Shown: piece after piece, positions 2,862 through 24,552 of the stretch | Position numbering within the stretch: position 1 is the stretch's first letter | Layout of the letters: each line of letters starts with the position of its first letter | Translations under genes and position numbers: made by a program | The notes under the pieces: model-generated | Told to the model about the DNA's origin: nothing | Seen by the model: the letters and a program-made list of their open reading frames with translations, nothing else | Database searches by the model: none | IMG/VR virus record: IMGVR_UViG_3300007512_000191 | Span: 1 to 24,552 of that record | DNA: 24,552 bases | Strand: one strand, 5' to 3' | Source: a virus

Positions 2862-3272
2862 TTATTCTGTTGCTAAGTATGTCGCTGTTAGTGATGCCAC
2901 TGCTCCAGCAATCGTCTTTGTAAATTCTGTTGTTGAGATAACCCAAACTGCACCTGTAGATGCTGCTATCCCATGTTCTCCGAATCCGACATCCACTGTA
3001 GTGTCCGTACCTGTAGTATGTGCAACCTTAATAGGTGCTGCTAAAAATGTCACCGCACCATCTCCCGGCAAGGATGCTGCGTTAACAAGCTGTAGATAAT
3101 AGTCGTCCGATGATGCTGTTGAGTCTATACGCCCAAAAACTTCATAGACTTTGCAGGGTGCTGCACTGATAACTGACGATGCTTCTAACGCCGATGTTGA
3201 TGCATCTACTGAGAACGCTGCTGCTATTTCCTTGTTGATTTTTTCTGAGATTACTCCTCCGTCGTGTGTCAT
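2862..3272 (-). CDS. Small virion structural protein (136 aa)
   Basis: 136 aa, rich in Ala, Ser, Thr and Val with alternating strands (for example KVYEVFGRIDSTASSDDYYL and GAVWVISTTEF). It resembles small beta-sandwich phage decoration or baseplate-type proteins in composition only. ATG at 3272 lies 8 nt downstream of an exact TATAAT box, so the mRNA may be leaderless. It is the first gene of what may be a separate transcription unit that continues leftward to the nozzle gene. Confidence 0.6.
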   Translation of the reverse strand: MTHDGGVISEKINKEIAAAFSVDASTSALEASSVISAAPCKVYEVFGRIDSTASSDDYYLQLVNAASLPGDGAVTFLAAPIKVAHTTGTDTTVDVGFGEHGIAASTGAVWVISTTEFTKTIAGAVASLTATYLATE

Positions 3273-3280
3273 ATGGTTAT

Positions 3281-3289
3281 ATTATATCA
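3281..3289 (-). promoter_or_regulatory. Extended -10 promoter TGATATAAT
   Basis: On the minus strand TGATATAAT (TGnTATAAT, an exact extended -10) lies in the 59-nt gap between 3332 and 3272. The last T of the -10 is at 3281, so transcription should begin about 3273-3275, at or next to the ATG at 3272. There is no convincing -35. The same nonamer occurs at the other main intergenic sites of this window. Confidence 0.55.
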
Positions 3290-3331
3290 TTTAATTGTTT
3301 TCCCAAGAAACAGGGGGTGACTATTTTCATA

Positions 3332-3620: not shown

Positions 3621-5195
3621 CTATATTGCTGTTCGTGAAATCTCAAACCAATCTGTCCCGTCTAGTTCAATCATTAGTATATCATTTGCAGTAGCTGAAA
3701 AGTTGCCCGACCCTGCAAGCCGTATCTGTCCACTACCTCCTGCCTGATCTGTCACCGTGAGTGACCCGTCAAACTTCAAACGAATCCTTGCACCTTCAGC
3801 CCATCCAAGTACAGCGATATTATCAATGGTCGTTGTTCCTGTAATGTCGAAGCTCTTACCCAGTCCTAGTGTGAGCGTCGATGCACTAGCAACATCTGCG
3901 CCCTTTTCATCGTGTAGATGAGGTGGTACTGAGCCATTGGTAATTGTCGTTCCATCTGATGCATATGCAATCTCACTTGTACCTCCGTCCGCACTTACGG
4001 CGTTGGTATTGGTTGCTGTGGTCACGGAACTGTTTGCACCAATTTCAATAGTAGCTGACCGTTGGGCGGTCAGTAGGTAGTTGCTCCCGACCTCTCCATG
4101 TAGGTGTGGTAAGAATACATCCCCCCCAACCAGCTTATTGGAATTGTTTACGATAATACCTGTACTATTAGATGCTGCTACCGTCCCCGATCCATTTTCA
4201 AATAACCAAACATCACGGTCATCCAAACCATCTCCATTGAAGAAGCTAGCCCCCTCTACCGCAATGCCACTAGTTCCAAGCCCCCGGAAAACTACACGAG
4301 CTAGGGAGTTCACGAGTGCATCCATCTGAACACCAATATAATCTGCGTTTGCCACGCAATTTTCCGTATCAAATACTGTCCCTTGATCCCACCTGTTGAA
4401 TCCGTCATTGGTAAGTGTATGGAAGCCCCTAGGAGACACCCCGATGTTCGCTATGTAACACCCACTAAAAAAAGCTCGCCCGTCACCACCCGACTGAAAC
4501 CGGTTAATATGGGAATGACAGTGCTTTAGCTCTACTTTGTCCGTGGTCAAGAAGAACCACACCTTGTTACCCGTAAACTTAACTTTTTGAATATTGTATT
4601 GTGTGGAGTTCTTCGCTACCACCGTTGTAGTGAGGTTGAGCGTCGTATCTTGGCTTATCAGGCTTATATCGTCCGATGTGGTCGGAACGGCAATGTCCAG
4701 GTTCTTGTCCTGAGTTATCCATAACCTGTTGCCGGTGTTTCGCCAGACCCAGCCTCTTCGAGCGTTTGCGGCACCCCCGACATACTCTATTAGCCGTCCT
4801 CGCCATTCGTCGTCTGAAAGTGCCGAACCGTCTACTGTTACAGATATTAACTCGTCTTCTGTTGCATGATGAACCGTTGTAATGTTTCGTGTTTCTTCTG
4901 TTGATTCTGTCCCAATAAACGTAATCCAGTTGATCTCCGAGAGAGTTCCCGGTACATCAAATGTCCCAGCTCCGAACTGTACTGTTTTGGTACTGGGATT
5001 AGACATGCCAACCATTTGAATAGCACGTTCCATTGTTTTGATAGGATTCGCTGATGAACCGTCACCATTATCATCGTCCCCTGTTGTTTCAACGTAGATA
5101 GTTGAGGGTAGGGTAGACGGGTTCAAATATGGCCTCTGGTCGTCTAAAAGGCTATCGGGTGTCTTCCCGAAGATTACGTTCTCGTTACTACGCAT
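3621..5195 (-). CDS. Tail spike/fibre with predicted right-handed beta-helix
   Basis: 524 aa. Residues about 30-75 hold a pectate-lyase-type opening of phage spikes: a strand IYVETTGDDDNGDGSS followed by NPIKTMERAIQM, the usual set-up for a right-handed parallel beta-helix. The middle (about 190-400) has short strand-turn repeats with Asn/Gly turns, as expected for helix rungs. The last 70 residues resemble a module common at the ends of phage fibres (RIRLKFDGSLTVTDQAGG, FSATANDILMIELDG, WFEIS). ATG at 5195 overlaps the previous stop by 8 nt. Role: receptor binding, possibly with polysaccharide-degrading activity; no catalytic residues can be assigned by eye. Confidence 0.65.
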   Translation of the reverse strand: MRSNENVIFGKTPDSLLDDQRPYLNPSTLPSTIYVETTGDDDNGDGSSANPIKTMERAIQMVGMSNPSTKTVQFGAGTFDVPGTLSEINWITFIGTESTEETRNITTVHHATEDELISVTVDGSALSDDEWRGRLIEYVGGAANARRGWVWRNTGNRLWITQDKNLDIAVPTTSDDISLISQDTTLNLTTTVVAKNSTQYNIQKVKFTGNKVWFFLTTDKVELKHCHSHINRFQSGGDGRAFFSGCYIANIGVSPRGFHTLTNDGFNRWDQGTVFDTENCVANADYIGVQMDALVNSLARVVFRGLGTSGIAVEGASFFNGDGLDDRDVWLFENGSGTVAASNSTGIIVNNSNKLVGGDVFLPHLHGEVGSNYLLTAQRSATIEIGANSSVTTATNTNAVSADGGTSEIAYASDGTTITNGSVPPHLHDEKGADVASASTLTLGLGKSFDITGTTTIDNIAVLGWAEGARIRLKFDGSLTVTDQAGGSGQIRLAGSGNFSATANDILMIELDGTDWFEISRTAI

Positions 5196-5526
5196 ACGCC
5201 TCCAAACGATAGTTTGTATCGGCGGAGTGGATGAGCTGTATGCTGTGTATATCCCTCCTGTATATCTTAAATTCGTCCTTCTTCAGCGTGATTGCGTCGC
5301 TGAACGTCGCTCCGTCCACTGATAATTTGTACGTAAATGTATTCCCTCCGTCATTTATGAAAAATACGCTCTTAGCATTCTTACCAAGCCCTGCATTGAT
5401 GTTCACAGTCACATTAGCAGTAACCGCCCCTTCTGATACGAAAGGGAGGCTACCATCGGCAGCAGACTGAACTTCATATGGCCCCTTCTTAGGTGATGGG
5501 CCTGGTATTATCTGCATGTCGGTCAT
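5188..5526 (-). CDS. Small virion protein (112 aa), possible spike/fibre adaptor
   Basis: 112 aa, mostly beta-strand in character (VTANVTVNINAGLGKNAKSV, FTYKLSVDGATFSDAITLKK). The pattern resembles small phage proteins that carry one beta-sandwich domain. It is directly upstream of the tail spike in the same operon and overlaps it by 8 nt. The start makes a TGA-T-ATG junction with the previous gene; a second Met three codons downstream is an alternative. Function unknown. Confidence 0.6.
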   Translation of the reverse strand: MTDMQIIPGPSPKKGPYEVQSAADGSLPFVSEGAVTANVTVNINAGLGKNAKSVFFINDGGNTFTYKLSVDGATFSDAITLKKDEFKIYRRDIHSIQLIHSADTNYRLEAYA

Positions 5527-5527
5527 A

Positions 5528-5851
5528 TCATTCTATAAAAGGCTGTAATTCCCCCTCTACGGAGGCTAATTGTTGCTGGAGATCGTACCTCCTAGACGCT
5601 ATATCTGCATATTGCGACACAATGTCTAGGGTGCTCATCTCGTTATTTTTCTTATTAAGAGCTATGCGTCTGATTTCACCCATAGAGTCTTCAAATCTCT
5701 CTGCAAATGCTACGATCTTCTTCATTTTCTCCGCATCTTTTGGGTTTGTAGCGAGCAATACGGGATTTACCTTTAGAATATCGAACAGTTGTGTGCCTAT
5801 TTCTATACTCCTGGCTCCTACCTGATCGAACGCTGTATCGTTTGCTTGCAT
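5528..5851 (-). CDS. Small helical hypothetical protein (107 aa)
   Basis: 107 aa and almost entirely helical by composition, with amphipathic stretches (PKDAEKMKKIVAFAERFEDS, ADIASRRYDLQQQLASVEGE). It contains no Cys. It lies between the glycosyltransferase fusion and the minor virion proteins, and its stop is one base before the next ATG. It may be a tail or ejection accessory; no family is recognised. Confidence 0.6.
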   Translation of the reverse strand: MQANDTAFDQVGARSIEIGTQLFDILKVNPVLLATNPKDAEKMKKIVAFAERFEDSMGEIRRIALNKKNNEMSTLDIVSQYADIASRRYDLQQQLASVEGELQPFIE

Positions 5852-5852
5852 A

Positions 5853-8192
5853 CTATGAAATCAACTTAATCCACTGTTTTGCAATGGACTGCCAATCATA
5901 TTTTACCATATTTTGACGCATTTCGTCCCTTTCTTTTTCTGTAATGGGGTTCTTGAGAGCTTTTATACACTCTTTCACCCATTCTTTACGTGCCTTTTCC
6001 TCTTTTAGTCCGAAGTCAAACTGATACGGTTTGTCCCAGTTCTCCTCATCTACATTCGTTTTAACCTTCACTCCGTGCTGTACCGTTTCCGCTAATGCTC
6101 CGAAGTCTGTTGCCACAGGCAATGCCCCTGCCGCCTGTGCCTTTCGTGCGGATATACAGTCAATCTCAAAGAACGCTGTTGGATAAGCGAAAACACCTGC
6201 TCGCTGGTAGAGTTTAGCTACTTCCTCGTGGCTAACACGTCCAAGGGCCGTTACCCCATCCGTGTTCTCTATTTTCTCCATCAGTTCCTTCTTCCATTCA
6301 CCCTGCTTGCTGTTTGCGGAGTGTACGGAATCAAACACGTGGAACCCATACGCCCATTCAAGCCTTGCTTCTGGCACTTCCTTTTTCACCTCTGCAAATA
6401 GATCGACAAGGGTCATCATTGACCTATCCGGTGATGAAGTATTGATCAGTAGCATAGGGTCACGTTCCTCATCGCCTTGCATGTCCTTCCAGTGAATACC
6501 GTTCTGTACCACAGTAAACTTCTCGTCCGGTACGGCAGGGAAGAGGTCTCTATGTGCTTTTGACTTCACGAGTATCTGGTCTACACGCCTTAACCGTCTC
6601 TTGTTTAGTTCTCCCGGAGGAATCACATCATGTAAATCAAGTAATACCTTTTCCGAGTTGATCTCGTGGTCTAACGCCCTTGCGGATCGCCAAAGGATCA
6701 CCGTATCCTGTTTATCGCGGTAATTCCACATCCAGAACGGCTTATATGTAACGCCCTCTATTTTCGCCTCAGAACCGCCGCAGTTGTTATATACCGTAAC
6801 ATTCCACCCATCTGCCGCAAAAGCCTCTGAGAGGTTAACTACAGCCTCCTCAGAGCCTCCTAGTCCCTTGGTTCGTGCTGTATTACCGTCCCATTGCTCC
6901 TCTGTGTACCCACAATAGTACACAAGGTCTTTTCCTGATGATTCTTCCTTTACGAAGTTCTCGTTCCTGATCTTACAAACCATCGGATGACTTTTCATGC
7001 TATCTGGGAGTTTCTCCATCGCTGTTCGCAGTTCCTCACCCTCAAGCTCCTTCATCGCCTCCACTTCTTTGTAATATGTTTCGTAGAGTTCGGCTCGTTC
7101 CGTCATTCGCTCCACTTTGTCCGCTAACTGTTTATCCCGTGGCATGATCTCAGCACATGCCTTTAGTGCATCGAGGGCAAGACTTGGCATTTCCATACGG
7201 TCGTAGACTGCTGCAAGTATAGAAAGCGGTATGTAGTCATAAGCTCGTGGATTGTACACAATCATTCGAGAATACGGCTTATCCTGTCCATGGCTAATCT
7301 GCCCCAGACCAATAAGGATGTAATCTCTCGCTTCTGCGAGCTTGTTTAAGTAAAAACAGCACCTTCCAGCCATATGATAACCATCTGGCACGGTAGGACG
7401 CATCCCAATAGCAAGCTGAGCGTGTTTGAGAGCCTCTGCAAACCGTCCTTTCTCGCTAAGCATGTCAGAAATCCGTACATGAGCTAAGAAAATCTCCTCA
7501 TCTGACTGTGATTCGTCTATAAACTGCTCAAATGTAACCAGTCCCGTATCAATATCACCCGTTCCCATCTGGGCACAGGCTAGGTTCCACAGAGTACGCG
7601 GATCTTCTGGGTTTTCTTTCGCATCCTTTGCTGCAATCTCTAGGTTTCGGTCATTCTTTTCCTCTCTGTCCTCTTCTTTGTAGAGATGGAGTACGTCTAT
7701 CCCGTCAAAACGGCGTGTATCTAACGCTCTCGTAGGATTAAACGATTCGTGAATAGACCCTTGCCACTCTACGCATCCATCATTCTTGAATATACGTTCC
7801 TTGTAGTGAACTACGACAGGGTTCTTGTACTCATCAAAATCATATAAATAAGCGACGCTGTATGCGTCTACGTCGTCGTTCTCATCCAGCACTCCTCGTA
7901 TCTGCTCGTATCCTCTAGGCACGTCATCACAATCAAGCCATGTCCAGTGCGTATACTCTTCTGGTATCTGGCTAAGGGCGAAGTTCCTTGCTGCTGCAAA
8001 GTCATTGATCCATTCAAAGTGACTTACGTTTGCCCCAAAGAACTTTGCTACGTCCTCACATGCTTCATTTTCCCCTGTGATAGTGAGAAAGATGCCATCT
8101 ACATGCGGTGCTGCATGTGTAAGACATCTCTTTAGTAGTTCTGCCTCATTATCAGAGGCTTTTACGATCATTGATAGTGCTATTTTTGCCAT
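5853..8192 (-). CDS. Bifunctional glycosyltransferase: GT2 (GT-A) + TPR + GT4 (GT-B) fusion
   Basis: 779 aa in three parts. Residues 1-170 look like a GT2/GT-A domain: ALSMIVKASDNEAELLKRCL at the N-terminus and WTWLDCDD (83-90) as the metal-binding DxD region. Residues about 195-360 are TPR-like helical pairs (TLWNLACAQMGTGDIDTGLV, GRFAEALKHAQLAIGMRPTV). Residues about 420-779 look like a GT4/GT-B domain: YYCGYTEEQWDGNTARTKGL, the GGSEEAVVNLSEAF loop (445-458), VVQNGI (561-566) and FFEIDCISARKAQAAGALPV (674-693). In that last motif the second Glu of the usual E-x7-E is Lys (K684). It sits inside the virion operon between the capsid and tail genes, so it may glycosylate virion proteins or modify the host envelope. 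The domains are clear; the substrate is unknown. Confidence 0.8.
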   Translation of the reverse strand: MAKIALSMIVKASDNEAELLKRCLTHAAPHVDGIFLTITGENEACEDVAKFFGANVSHFEWINDFAAARNFALSQIPEEYTHWTWLDCDDVPRGYEQIRGVLDENDDVDAYSVAYLYDFDEYKNPVVVHYKERIFKNDGCVEWQGSIHESFNPTRALDTRRFDGIDVLHLYKEEDREEKNDRNLEIAAKDAKENPEDPRTLWNLACAQMGTGDIDTGLVTFEQFIDESQSDEEIFLAHVRISDMLSEKGRFAEALKHAQLAIGMRPTVPDGYHMAGRCCFYLNKLAEARDYILIGLGQISHGQDKPYSRMIVYNPRAYDYIPLSILAAVYDRMEMPSLALDALKACAEIMPRDKQLADKVERMTERAELYETYYKEVEAMKELEGEELRTAMEKLPDSMKSHPMVCKIRNENFVKEESSGKDLVYYCGYTEEQWDGNTARTKGLGGSEEAVVNLSEAFAADGWNVTVYNNCGGSEAKIEGVTYKPFWMWNYRDKQDTVILWRSARALDHEINSEKVLLDLHDVIPPGELNKRRLRRVDQILVKSKAHRDLFPAVPDEKFTVVQNGIHWKDMQGDEERDPMLLINTSSPDRSMMTLVDLFAEVKKEVPEARLEWAYGFHVFDSVHSANSKQGEWKKELMEKIENTDGVTALGRVSHEEVAKLYQRAGVFAYPTAFFEIDCISARKAQAAGALPVATDFGALAETVQHGVKVKTNVDEENWDKPYQFDFGLKEEKARKEWVKECIKALKNPITEKERDEMRQNMVKYDWQSIAKQWIKLIS

Positions 8193-18854: not shown

Positions 18855-18883
18855 TGTGCATACACTGTGCAAGGTGTGGATAA
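18855..18883. promoter_or_regulatory. Consensus DnaA box with adjacent TGTGCA direct repeats
   Basis: TGTGGATAA at 18875-18883 is the reverse complement of TTATCCACA, the consensus DnaA box. It lies between the two divergent promoters and overlaps the place of the rightward -35. Two TGTGCA copies, 11 bp apart (18855-18860 and 18866-18871), lie next to it and may be repressor half-sites. A host DnaA link to replication or promoter control is inferred. Confidence 0.45.
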
Positions 18884-18891
18884 CTCTGGCG

Positions 18892-18900
18892 TGATATAAT
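18892..18900 (+). promoter_or_regulatory. Rightward extended -10 promoter TGATATAAT
   Basis: TGATATAAT on the plus strand; the transcript should start near 18907. No good -35 is present. The leader then contains a 6-bp palindrome (GGCTCA-C-TGAGCC, 18929-18941) and an intrinsic terminator before the first gene at 19010, so basal output may be a short RNA of about 75 nt. Confidence 0.6.
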
Positions 18901-18942
18901 ACTCCTACGTTCTTTTATACAACACATAGGCTCACTGAGCCG

Positions 18943-18982
18943 AAAGAAACAAGATTGCGCTCCCCCGTGGTCTTGTTTTTTT
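18943..18982 (+). terminator. Intrinsic terminator in the leader of the rightward operon
   Basis: AAACAAGA (18947-18954) pairs with TCTTGTTT (18971-18978). The helix extends inward by five pairs (three G-U) around a CTCCCC loop and outward by A-U pairs to 18943/18982. A run of seven T (18976-18982) follows. It lies between the promoter at 18892-18900 and the first ATG, so it acts as an attenuator or ends a short RNA. Confidence 0.7.
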
Positions 18983-19009
18983 ATTCCGTGCATGGTAAGG
19001 TCGTGGCGT

Positions 19010-22020: not shown

Positions 22021-22323
22021 ATGAGCACGAGAGCGAAGGGGCGCAGGCGTGAAGTAATGGCACGTGACGAACTAAAAGAACAAGGGTTTAGGGTTATGCT
22101 CGCACCAATGGCAAGCAGATGGCAACGGCAGACCGACATGTTTGGATTATGGGATATAATAGCCGTTCGGCATGATACAGTTCGCTTTATACAGGTAAAG
22201 TCCAGAAAGATATACGGAAAAGCCTTATTGCCATTTCATGACTTCAAGTGCCCCCTTAATTGCTCTCGTGAAATATGGACATATAAGAAAGGAAAATCTG
22301 GATTTGATATTCAATACCTATAA
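22021..22323 (+). CDS. Holliday-junction-resolvase-like PD-(D/E)XK nuclease
   Basis: 100 aa. KGRRREVMARDELKEQGFRV (6-25) provides the N-terminal Glu11, WDIIAV (44-49) the Asp45 and FIQVKSRK (56-63) the Q-x-K pair (Gln58, Lys60), where Gln replaces the common Glu. This matches archaeal Hjc-like or VRR-NUC-like resolvases. It could cut recombination branches left by the ERF/exonuclease pair. It ends the SD-less early operon. Confidence 0.65.
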   Translation: MSTRAKGRRREVMARDELKEQGFRVMLAPMASRWQRQTDMFGLWDIIAVRHDTVRFIQVKSRKIYGKALLPFHDFKCPLNCSREIWTYKKGKSGFDIQYL

Positions 22324-22325
22324 TC

Positions 22326-22442
22326 CCTTCCTCACTGAACACGACAAGTACGGGAACGCGGAAACTTCTGAACGGGCATGTATGCACTTGCATGTATCCT
22401 CGCTCTTTAGCGGAAGTCCATTCTCTTGTTCAGTAAGGAGGG
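22326..22442 (+). promoter_or_regulatory. Long-range RNA helix that sequesters an SD
   Basis: 22326-22340 pairs with 22428-22442 (14 of 15 pairs, one A-C mismatch, one G-U). The 3' arm contains AAGGAGG (22435-22441), a perfect SD five bases before ATG 22447. So the SD is hidden when the helix forms. The 87-nt enclosed region holds smaller repeats (CATGTATGCA, TTGCATGTAT) that may fold further. This stretch between the nuclease and LRR genes is structured and not empty. Confidence 0.5.
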
Positions 22443-22443
22443 T

Positions 22444-22503
22444 GTTATGCCCTATCGCTCCGAGGTTTGCATGGATGTTATCCTCGGAGCGATAATGCAT
22501 AAC
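22444..22503 (+). repeat. 20-bp imperfect inverted repeat covering the leader ORF
   Basis: TATCGCTCCGAGG (22453-22465) pairs perfectly with 22482-22494. After a 2x2 internal loop, GTTATGC (22444-22450) pairs with GCATAAC (22497-22503). The total is 20 bp around a 16-nt loop. No U-tract follows, so it is not a normal terminator. It lies within the 19-codon ORF and just before the LRR gene. Confidence 0.65.
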
Positions 22504-22506
22504 TAA
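22447..22506 (+). CDS. 19-codon leader peptide with perfect SD upstream of LRR gene
   Basis: ATG 22447 lies 5 nt after AAGGAGG (22435-22441). The frame encodes MPYRSEVCMDVILGAIMHN and ends at TAA 22504-22506, six nt before the LRR ATG at 22513. The LRR gene has no SD of its own, so it is probably translated by reinitiation or coupling. The codons coincide with a strong hairpin, which translation would melt. It is read here as a leader ORF; expression is not proven. Confidence 0.5.
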   Translation: MPYRSEVCMDVILGAIMHN

Positions 22507-22512
22507 TAACGT

Positions 22513-23115
22513 ATGAACAACCAATACATAGTCGCAGACATAATTGAAAAACACATCGGTACAAATTACACCAAGCAAGTTCTCCTTGCTGCTGAAGAAA
22601 TAGAACTCACGCTTGAGATACAATCTCTTAAAGAGCGCATAGCCTTACTTGATAAAGTAATTGATAAAGTAAAACCAAATAATAACAAACAACAACTTAT
22701 AGACTGGGCGCTCTCTTTCGGCAAAGACGAGAACTGGATAGATGAGCGATTCATTTTCCACAAAGATGGGCGTATAGAGTCAAAGAATGAATGGTTGTCA
22801 TTGAAGTTTATGGGTATTTCTTATTTACCAAAAGCTTTTTCTGCCATTGAGGGTGTGACGACGCTCTACCTCAATGGCAACAATATCTCCAAGATAGAGA
22901 ATATACCGGATAATGTGACGAAGCTCTCCCTCGGTAGCAACAATATCTCCAAGATAGAGAATATACCGGATAATGTGACGACGCTCTCCCTCGGTAGCAA
23001 CAACATTTCCAAGATAGAGAATATCTCGGATGGTGTGACAAATCTCTACCTCGGTGGCAACCCCATCGAGAACCCAGAAGATAAACCAGAAACAGTAAAA
23101 CATTTCTTTCTATGA
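22513..23115 (+). CDS. Leucine-rich-repeat protein (200 aa)
   Basis: 200 aa. Residues about 28-58 may form a coiled coil (ELTLEIQSLKERIALLDKVI). A linker segment has WIDERFIFHKDGRIESKNEW. From residue 115 come four 20-residue LRRs of the bacterial type: VTTLYLNGNNISKIENIPDN, then VTKLSLGSNNISKIENIPDN, VTTLSLGSNNISKIENISDG and a degenerate last unit. No signal peptide is visible, so it is likely intracellular. It is the first large gene of the SD cassette and its stop overlaps the next ATG. LRR domains bind proteins; a role in sensing or counter-defence is speculative. Confidence 0.8.
   Translation: MNNQYIVADIIEKHIGTNYTKQVLLAAEEIELTLEIQSLKERIALLDKVIDKVKPNNNKQQLIDWALSFGKDENWIDERFIFHKDGRIESKNEWLSLKFMGISYLPKAFSAIEGVTTLYLNGNNISKIENIPDNVTKLSLGSNNISKIENIPDNVTTLSLGSNNISKIENISDGVTNLYLGGNPIENPEDKPETVKHFFL
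22855..23094 (+). repeat. Four 60-bp tandem units encoding the LRRs
   Basis: Units start at 22855, 22915, 22975 and 23035, each exactly 60 bp. Units 1 and 2 are identical over their last 38 bases, and differences cluster in the codons for the exposed positions (LYLNGN versus LSLGSN). High DNA identity suggests recent expansion by slippage or recombination. The fourth unit has diverged. Confidence 0.8.
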
Positions 23116-23216
23116 CCAAACAAGAAGCGGTTTGGCAGTACCAAGGGGGGCATGATGGGTGTGAAACCCTACCAATCGTGTACCCCTTGGTGCTTATCAC
23201 CAAGGAGGGAAAATGA
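23112..23216 (+). CDS. 34-aa ORF coupled by ATGA overlaps at both ends
   Basis: ATG 23112 overlaps the LRR stop and its TGA (23214-23216) overlaps the next ATG (23213). The protein has TKQEAVWQYQGGHDGCETLP and a hydrophobic-to-basic end (IVYPLVLITKEGK). The two 4-nt overlaps favour real translation. Its 3' half carries two mutually exclusive hairpins that control the SD of the next gene, so it may function as a regulatory leader. No own SD. Confidence 0.5.
   Translation: MTKQEAVWQYQGGHDGCETLPIVYPLVLITKEGK
23137..23208 (+). promoter_or_regulatory. Alternative hairpins around the SD of the next gene
   Basis: Helix A: 23137-23148 with 23183-23194 (12 pairs, one G-U). Helix B: CCTTGGTG (23185-23192) with CACCAAGG (23198-23205), 8 perfect pairs and a 5-nt loop. 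A and B share 23185-23192, so they exclude each other. Helix B covers AAGG of the SD AAGGAGG (23202-23208), four bases before ATG 23213. A leaves the SD free. Confidence 0.5.
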
Positions 23217-23413
23217 AGAAGGAATCTTTGTACATTGCACAAGGTCGATGCGATTCATGCCTACAATTTGATTGGGCGATTGCCTCGTCTATATTGGATG
23301 CTAGGCTACTGCTAGGTCATCAACATGGCAGAGACCATCTCTGGTCTGGTCATATCACTATCAACCCTATCTCAAAGGCGAGTGCCAGAGAGATGGAGAG
23401 GACAAGACGATGA
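23213..23413 (+). CDS. Small Cys/His protein of the SD cassette (66 aa)
   Basis: 66 aa with an AAGGAGG SD four bases upstream. It contains C-x2-C (GRCDSCLQFDW) and a His-rich central part (LLLGHQHGRDHLWSGHIT), so a single metal site is possible. The C-terminus is basic (ASAREMERTRR). Its stop overlaps the next ATG by ATGA. No family is recognised. Confidence 0.55.
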   Translation: MKKESLYIAQGRCDSCLQFDWAIASSILDARLLLGHQHGRDHLWSGHITINPISKASAREMERTRR

Positions 23414-23832
23414 AAGAGAAAGTGAAACACACCCTGTGTTCTCTACTTCTGGTATCGCTCGGCTTCCTTGCAGGGAACAAATGCGACCCCGAAGAGAATG
23501 ACCGAGTACGATACGAGGGATTGCTCATCGACGGTGCGTGGGCTGATAGCGTCACCATCAACGATGAAGATTCCAAAATCATTATCACTACATGGGACGA
23601 AACCGTTCGCCTATGTTATGACGGAGATGTAGACATTCAATTCTTCGGTACGCAGAACCTCTACGGCTTCGACTGCCAAGACTTCCACTACAATCCGAAC
23701 GACAAGGACTTCACCTTGAATTACACTTACGGATTACTCGTTATTCCTATCGAAGGATGCATTAGAGATAACGATACTATTCGTCTCTCTATCTTCTCAA
23801 TCGGTACAATGTTCGTGCGGAGGACTAAATGA
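23410..23832 (+). CDS. Exported Cys-containing protein (140 aa)
   Basis: 140 aa with a GGAGAGG SD at 23395-23401. The N-terminus KEKVKHTLCSLLLVSLGFLA is a Sec signal: basic start, hydrophobic core, small residues. A lipobox is absent, since the Cys at residue 25 is preceded by Gly-Asn-Lys. The mature part is beta-rich and acidic with several Cys (RLCYDGDVDIQFFG, CQDFHYNPNDKDFTLNYTY) and may form disulphides. It is probably periplasmic or surface-located. Function unknown; the pairing with a zinc protein and an LRR protein is notable. Confidence 0.6.
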   Translation: MKEKVKHTLCSLLLVSLGFLAGNKCDPEENDRVRYEGLLIDGAWADSVTINDEDSKIIITTWDETVRLCYDGDVDIQFFGTQNLYGFDCQDFHYNPNDKDFTLNYTYGLLVIPIEGCIRDNDTIRLSIFSIGTMFVRRTK

Positions 23833-24035
23833 TTGGTCCATGCTCACCTTGTAAGTATTATCGGATACTAAAAGGCACACAGTATGACATTGCTATGTGC
23901 AAAATGTGCAAGCGTATCAAGCTAATGTGTCCTCATTGCGAGGGGACTATGCGTGAAGACCATCGCTACAACTTTCAAGAGTTCTCATGCGTAAGGTGCA
24001 ACCACACCACTAATCTACGCTCTATCTGGGGTTAG
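23829..24035 (+). CDS. Zinc-ribbon protein with four CxxC knuckles (68 aa)
   Basis: 68 aa with GGAGG at 23819-23823, five bases before ATG. Four knuckles, CSPC, CKMC, CPHC and CVRC, predict two zinc sites. Basic stretches (CKRIKLMCPHCEG) could contact nucleic acid. It ends the cassette: its ATG overlaps the previous stop by 4 nt, and after its TAG a short hairpin follows. It resembles small regulatory or translation-associated zinc ribbons in outline only. Confidence 0.6.
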   Translation: MIGPCSPCKYYRILKGTQYDIAMCKMCKRIKLMCPHCEGTMREDHRYNFQEFSCVRCNHTTNLRSIWG

Positions 24036-24076: not shown

Positions 24077-24289
24077 ATGCCAAAAATAGAACACATACTA
24101 CACGGAAACTTCAACCGCAGCCGTCTGGGCACCGGTACGGCTGACAAAATAAACGAGATAATCGATGCGGTAAACGATAAAAGAGACATTCAGTTTGTTT
24201 TGCAGGAGTTGTTTCACTGTGTAAGAACAGGAGAACCAATGAGCGGTAGACTAGAGTTAAAGATAGAAGAACTTATAGAGTCTCTTTGA
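24077..24289 (+). CDS. Small hypothetical protein (70 aa), SD-less
   Basis: 70 aa, charged and helical (TADKINEIIDAVNDKRDIQF, LELKIEELIESL). It lacks an SD and is preceded by an AT-rich TATATG, as in the viral core, so it marks the return from the SD cassette to ordinary phage sequence. No family is recognised. The region after it (24290-24425) carries an inverted repeat and a promoter and no gene. Confidence 0.6.
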   Translation: MPKIEHILHGNFNRSRLGTGTADKINEIIDAVNDKRDIQFVLQELFHCVRTGEPMSGRLELKIEELIESL

Positions 24290-24317
24290 TAAGTTATGGT
24301 GTTCATATGCGAGGGAC

Positions 24318-24335
24318 ACTATAGTAATCTATAGT
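24318..24335. promoter_or_regulatory. Operator-like inverted repeat
   Basis: ACTATAG-TAAT-CTATAGT is a perfect 7-bp inverted repeat around 4 nt, between the 70-aa gene and the promoter at 24411. It may be a repressor site or a small hairpin; it is not followed by a T-run. Confidence 0.35.
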
Positions 24336-24410
24336 TGAAACTAGGAGAGGCTAGCAAAGCAGAGAATTGAAGGGACGATATTATAGTTATCGGATACGAA
24401 TATTGACGCA

Positions 24411-24419
24411 TGATATAAT
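24411..24419 (+). promoter_or_regulatory. Extended -10 promoter TGATATAAT, leaderless start
   Basis: TGATATAAT with six bases between its last T and ATG 24426, so transcription should start at the ATG itself. TTGACG upstream (24403-24408) is too close to serve as -35. It matches the copies at 3281, 18819 and 18892. Confidence 0.55.
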
Positions 24420-24425
24420 GCACTC

Positions 24426-24552
24426 ATGGAAACAGCAATAACATTCGGTCTCGCTATTCATACCTTCCTATTATTCCTTGCGTTGATTGGCGTGTACTTC
24501 GGTGTGAAAGAACGTGAGAAGGATTACTTAATAGGATTCGGGCAAATAGCTG
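24426..24552 (+). CDS. Membrane protein, C-terminus cut by window edge
   Basis: Open to the edge (42 full codons). The first segment (ITFGLAIHTFLLFLALIGVY) is a membrane helix with the N-terminus outside or a short tail; then a basic KEREKDYL. The gene sits directly on the TGATATAAT promoter and probably has a leaderless mRNA. Family unknown from the fragment. Confidence 0.5.
   Translation, partial: METAITFGLAIHTFLLFLALIGVYFGVKEREKDYLIGFGQIA

Follow-up and report, generated by a model that had tools for sequence, protein, structure and literature searches.

Three described systems lie closest to the locus considered here: translational riboswitches and attenuators, the RNase III sites that occur between early genes of T7-like phages, and the Bacteroidota gene rpsU. 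In the Bacteroidota, rpsU is regulated by ribosomes lacking bS21, and its SD sequences are stronger than -13 kcal/mol (PMC9976891).

The window analysed here is the whole 24,552-base record IMGVR_UViG_3300007512_000191. It derives from a tailed phage (caudovirus), in which a terminase, portal, major head protein, head protease, Erf, and RecE-like exonuclease were identified. We propose, with a probability of roughly 0.6, that this phage carries an accessory tract made up of conserved folded RNAs, exchangeable genes, and a three-gene block gated by SD access. Such a modular tract would lie downstream of a resolvase-like gene, and its framework would consist of intergenic RNA that folds on the gene strand.

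Comparisons were drawn with a sister virus represented by contigs L004, L005/L018/L020/L027, and L006, and probably also by L021 and L022; its identity to the window is 83% for the terminase, 65% for the exonuclease, and 89% for the resolvase. L005 belongs to the same sister virus as L004, hence one independent relative carries the RNA elements, and the first cargo slot past the resolvase gene is covered by L004 only. One further contig (L003/L019) is near-identical to the window and stops before the region of interest. Upstream of the cargo slot, a 2.3-kb insert between Erf and the exonuclease in L004, L005, and L006 constitutes a second difference; in L004 (644-2865) a ParB-N-like protein and a 128-aa ORF are encoded there alongside a PAPS-reductase/DUF3440 (IbrAB-like) protein, and matches to DndC are weak. 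The early-operon leader at 18880-18990, which is conserved (85% identical in the sister virus), comprises TGATATAAT, a short hairpin, and a CAAGA...TCTTG hairpin followed by T7, and is a possible attenuator or small RNA.

The features of the tract are as follows.

22021..22323, + strand: Hjc/PD-(D/E)XK Holliday-junction-resolvase-like gene (PHROG 6591, E=3.8e-5; 89% identical in L004)
22326..22442, + strand: RNA1, closing stem 22326-22341 with 22427-22442; z -6.3 (with RNA2); covariance-model bits 157/147
22444..22503, + strand: RNA2, hairpin of 7 bp, 2x2 internal loop, and 13 bp
22513..23115, + strand: LRR protein gene, 200 aa (Pfam LRR_4, 1.4e-7)
23116..23194, + strand: RNA3, small hairpin 23116-23135 and long hairpin 23137-23194, core CATGANGGGTGTGAAACCCTA; z -4.7
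23185..23205, + strand: alternative, predicted SD-sequestering helix, CCTTGGTG/CACCAAGG pairing, competing with the RNA3 stem
23202..23209, + strand: SD AAGGAGGG of the gene at 23213, 3-nt spacer
23213..23413, + strand: Cys/His-containing ORF, 66 aa, first of the block; SD -11.9, no T at -1
23410..23832, + strand: 140-aa protein, hydrophobic N-terminus, beta-rich; SD -6.4
23829..24035, + strand: double-zinc-ribbon-like protein, 68 aa, four CxxC pairs; SD -9.5

Folded elements and an exchangeable cargo slot

The stop codon of the resolvase-like gene lies 2 nt upstream of RNA1, whose long stem encloses a structured internal domain conserved in sequence. When 100-nt segments of the + strand are ranked by stability across the full 24.5 kb, the top two start at 22411 and 23111, and fold z-scores of -6.3 (RNA1 and RNA2 together) and -4.7 (RNA3) in the window have counterparts of -4.9 and -2.4 in L004. 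Between the RNA1 copies of the two viruses there are four compensatory pairs, eight one-sided changes that keep the pair as a wobble, and five breaks; 92.7% of cells are paired, versus 41-52% in slid registers, and a P1 simulation gave p of about 0.01. We regard this apparent covariation, drawn from one independent relative, as good but short of overwhelming. RNA2 retains its plan in L004 (7 bp, 2x2 loop, upper stem) with almost no sequence in common, and only its shape is claimed, because the 3' arm is misregistered in the sequence alignment and covariation fails. A nearly continuous helix of about 20 bp or more, the feature sought in a putative RNase III processing site, is present between cistrons. 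RNA1 and RNA2, which follow the resolvase gene and precede the first cargo gene, would most likely act on a polycistronic mRNA, through processing or protection at their double-stranded stems or as a regulatory leader.

Conservation of RNA1 could in principle reflect protein coding, as the +1 frame of the resolvase gene is open through it to 22495 in the window and to 4309 in L004. This is very improbable, and we rejected it: in the best-conserved stretch of RNA1 the codon differences are all nonsynonymous and fall across all three positions, the changes track base pairing, the C-termini differ, and no shift site was identified.

The same fold accounts for the strongest SD-like string in the region. 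A sequence-only reading had counted AAGGAGG here among its SDs; the string, at 22435-22441, is the 3' arm of the RNA1 stem, and L004 has TTAGAGAGG at its position and no ATG, so that the ATG at 22447, which opens a 19-codon ORF inside the near-perfect hairpin RNA2, does not begin a gene.

Between RNA2 and RNA3 the two viruses carry different genes. The slot holds the LRR gene in the window and an unrelated 162-aa ORF (4387-4875) in L004; both slots have a leader, AATAACTAATAACGTAT (in the window CATAACTAATAACGTAT), ahead of the start and TATGACCAA at the end. Since L004 retains RNA1, the RNA2 shape, and RNA3 around the unrelated ORF, the conserved parts appear to be the RNAs and the proteins between them exchangeable cargo. 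The LRR gene starts as the viral core genes do, with no SD (+1.9) and T at -1, and was replaced alone between conserved RNAs, which removes it from the SD-bearing unit in which it had earlier been placed. Relatives of its product were limited to generic LRR matches among phages, viral contigs, plasmids, PDB, and sampled genomes, the collections varying by protein. Its repeats are encoded by a 60-bp tandem repeat (22854-23061; 3.5 copies, 88% matching), which is a recent repeat expansion.

Might the inverted repeats act as DNA instead, as cruciform or single-strand hairpin sites of cargo exchange, attC-like or serving as resolvase substrates? They do sit at cargo boundaries with a resolvase-like gene adjoining, the RNA2 sequence changes along with the cargo, and two of the sister assemblies end within repeats (L004 in RNA3, L005 in RNA1). 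However, the interiors of RNA1 and RNA3 are conserved in sequence, unlike those of attC, and the attC core order RYYYAAC...GTTRRRY is reversed, RNA2 starting GTTATGC and ending GCATAAC. Neither an integrase nor a Y1 transposase was seen, and ordinary homologous mosaicism suffices to explain the exchange. Changes of the G-U kind also outnumber A-C changes on the gene strand, and it is mainly by this small excess that the strand of the RNA elements was assigned. We consider the DNA-site explanation unlikely and infer that the elements are transcribed and function as RNA.

Homology searches for these elements returned the two viruses. Rfam 15 covariance models at relaxed E gave no plausible match in the window, L004, L005, or L027, and exact-core scans of viral contigs for RNA1, RNA3, and RNA4 recovered the sister virus only. 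Other GGGTGTGAAACCCTA matches in viral contigs had different folds and were attributed to chance. Besides chance-level matches, covariance models R1 and R2 found only the window, L004, and L005 loci and their reverse strands, and R1 had no match in 198 genomes. The most useful result is a new set of phage RNA elements with, so far, two members. The fourth RNA-like element, RNA4, lies at 24295-24360 and, in reverse, at L005 5704-5768; it consists of two small hairpins with core GGCTAGCAAAGC, its copies differ by compensatory changes, and its place and orientation differ in the sister virus. Next to the L005 copy is a stretch of about 470 nt (5445-5912) devoid of ORFs of at least 50 aa, the minus strand of which gives one of the most stable sister-virus folds (-44 kcal/mol).

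Start signals in the virus and its sister

SD strength was scored against the anti-SD ACCUCCUUA, with a cut-off of -6 kcal/mol or below. Only 1/32 core starts reached it, and the absence of SDs from viral core genes, noted earlier from the sequence, essentially holds under this systematic scoring. T occupies position -1 in 29 of the 32, compared with 26% of all ATGs in the window; for 19434, one of the three exceptions, the coordinate is one base off and the true ATG is also preceded by T. The sister virus shares the signature (10/10 starts in L021, 13/14 in L022, and 19/22 in L020), which was not seen in relatives more distant than this. T at -1 without an SD is a strong mark of the lineage; it could point to the lineage of the host, and pairing of U(-1) with A37 of the initiator tRNA might be its basis. 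Separately, TATAAT boxes lie 6-10 nt ahead of the ATG at 24414-24426 (ATG 24426) and 3272-3290 (3272, minus strand), which suggests leaderless transcripts.

Within the tract, all four SD strings reported earlier between 22435 and 23829 are present (ahead of ATGs 22447, -12.6; 23213, -11.9; 23410, -6.4; and 23829, -9.5 kcal/mol), the first being the RNA1 arm. The genes at 23213, 23410, and 23829 are odd by both signals, having an SD and no T at -1, while the LRR gene (22513) and the ORF at 24077 have core-like starts. SDs are thus borne by three genes behind RNA3 and one core gene, that is, by 3/3 block genes versus 1/32 core genes (Fisher p = 0.0006).

RNA3 and the three-gene block

RNA3 has a counterpart at L004 4922-4988; over 62 nt the two are 88.7% identical, and the core hardly varies. 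The 34-aa ORF (23112) that overlies it lacks an SD and is broken after eight codons in L004, where the hairpin is conserved; what had been counted as a gene of the unit is an unconserved frame above a conserved RNA hairpin.

ACCAAGG occurs twice around this element, in the RNA3 5' arm (23140) and at the SD (23199), and the intervening CCTTGGT can pair with one copy or the other. The resulting arm/anti-arm/arm arrangement (23140/23184/23199) is the sole instance in the window, with 0.1 expected per shuffled window. Were the long stem to form (ACCAAGGGG with CCCCUUGGU), the SD would be free; were the 5' arm unavailable, the same 3' arm would pair with CACCAAGG and bury it. Computed energies are -43.0 for the SD-free and -33.2 for the SD-paired state, and withholding the 5' arm leaves the SD almost entirely buried. 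Mutually exclusive stems, one burying an SD, are what an SD-masking switch calls for, and both are found here in computed folds. The L004 contig ends at GGTG, just before the SD-side bases of the helix.

Because the arrangement is the only one of its kind in the window and falls on an SD, RNA3 probably serves the three-gene block as a translational switch. Access to the SD would gate translation of the block, which would explain why SDs occur in an otherwise SD-less genome. As the SD-free state is about 10 kcal/mol more stable, such a switch would need an active disruptor. We infer that RNA3 can flip, and it may be open by default and close when its 5' arm is occupied, or it may be a folding-dependent switch. 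A more specific proposal, that RNA3 is a new riboswitch-like element and that exposure of the SD gives one small operon a regulatory channel of its own, is doubtful at present; if true, it would place an SD channel in a virus that generally initiates with U at -1 in place of an SD.

Of the proteins of the block, the 140-aa one, with its hydrophobic N-terminus, is probably exported, and its AlphaFold model (pLDDT 42, strands only) is uninterpretable; the 68-aa protein has weak, sub-threshold Zn-ribbon Pfam matches and no phage homologue. Apart from one weak zinc-ribbon match, the three proteins have no relatives among the phages, viral contigs, plasmids, PDB, and sampled genomes searched, the collections covered varying from protein to protein. 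PADLOC likewise gave no component match for the cassette proteins, and the suggestion of a defence or counter-defence system is left unsupported.

Two accounts of foreign origin bear on this block. The sequence-only reading held that the LRR, 34-aa, Cys/His, exported, and zinc-ribbon genes form one unit acquired from an SD-using donor, perhaps for defence or counter-defence. Three of these genes do have SDs without T at -1, and few genes match the core codon model as badly as the LRR, exported, and zinc-ribbon genes do, a weak signal as the genes are small; GC is the same as in the flanks. The ATGA overlaps said to join the genes are real (23112, 23213, 23410, and 23829), but they are no marker of a cassette because they also occur among core genes (e.g. 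20717 and 17739). Against a five-gene unit stand the viral start of the LRR gene, the unconserved 34-aa ORF, the exchange of the RNA2-RNA3 slot alone in L004, the silence of PADLOC, and the lack of co-occurring relatives in the collections searched. The sister virus has RNA1-3 without the LRR gene, which takes the five-gene account halfway to refutation, and we judge it improbable. What survives of it, with partial support, is a foreign or differently regulated SD block of three genes, 23213-24035.

The narrower account, in which 23195-24035 alone is a recent acquisition from an SD-using lineage, placed behind an RNA3 of older, viral origin, is possible if somewhat unlikely. The start signals of the block differ from those of the core and of the sister cargo (all T at -1), and its exported and zinc-ribbon genes are odd in codon use. 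On the other hand, GC is as in the flanks, no donor was found, and pairing of the SD is specific to the viral RNA3 arm, a match more suggestive of co-evolution than of a chance junction. The SDs do not by themselves imply an SD-using donor, because the first of them is the target of the sequestering helix. A foreign origin of 23195-24035 is, moreover, compatible with an RNA3 switch.

Comparison with known systems

The tract illustrates that strong SD strings may be arms of folded RNAs and not gene starts. It would also provide a concrete case of SD access serving as a switch in a lineage without routine SD use, and in it three RNA elements outside Rfam frame exchangeable phage cargo.

Like the RNase III sites of T7-like phages, these elements include long interrupted hairpins between apparently co-transcribed genes, and RNA2 keeps its shape while its sequence drifts. 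Unlike them, RNA1 and RNA3 have conserved unpaired cores, which RNase III does not need, and cleavage here is putative. As for the Bacteroidota, a host from this phylum with bS21 gating was considered and found unsupported. The phylum sample of G007 does not show the phage's T(-1) signature; the likeness to rpsU (PMC9976891) lies in the use of a strong SD for regulation where SDs are not the norm. Relative to translational riboswitches and attenuators, RNA3 differs in having no Rfam match, no known ligand or regulator, and one SD-side example, and shares with them an upstream fold in which the 5' arm and the SD are alternative partners for the 3' arm.
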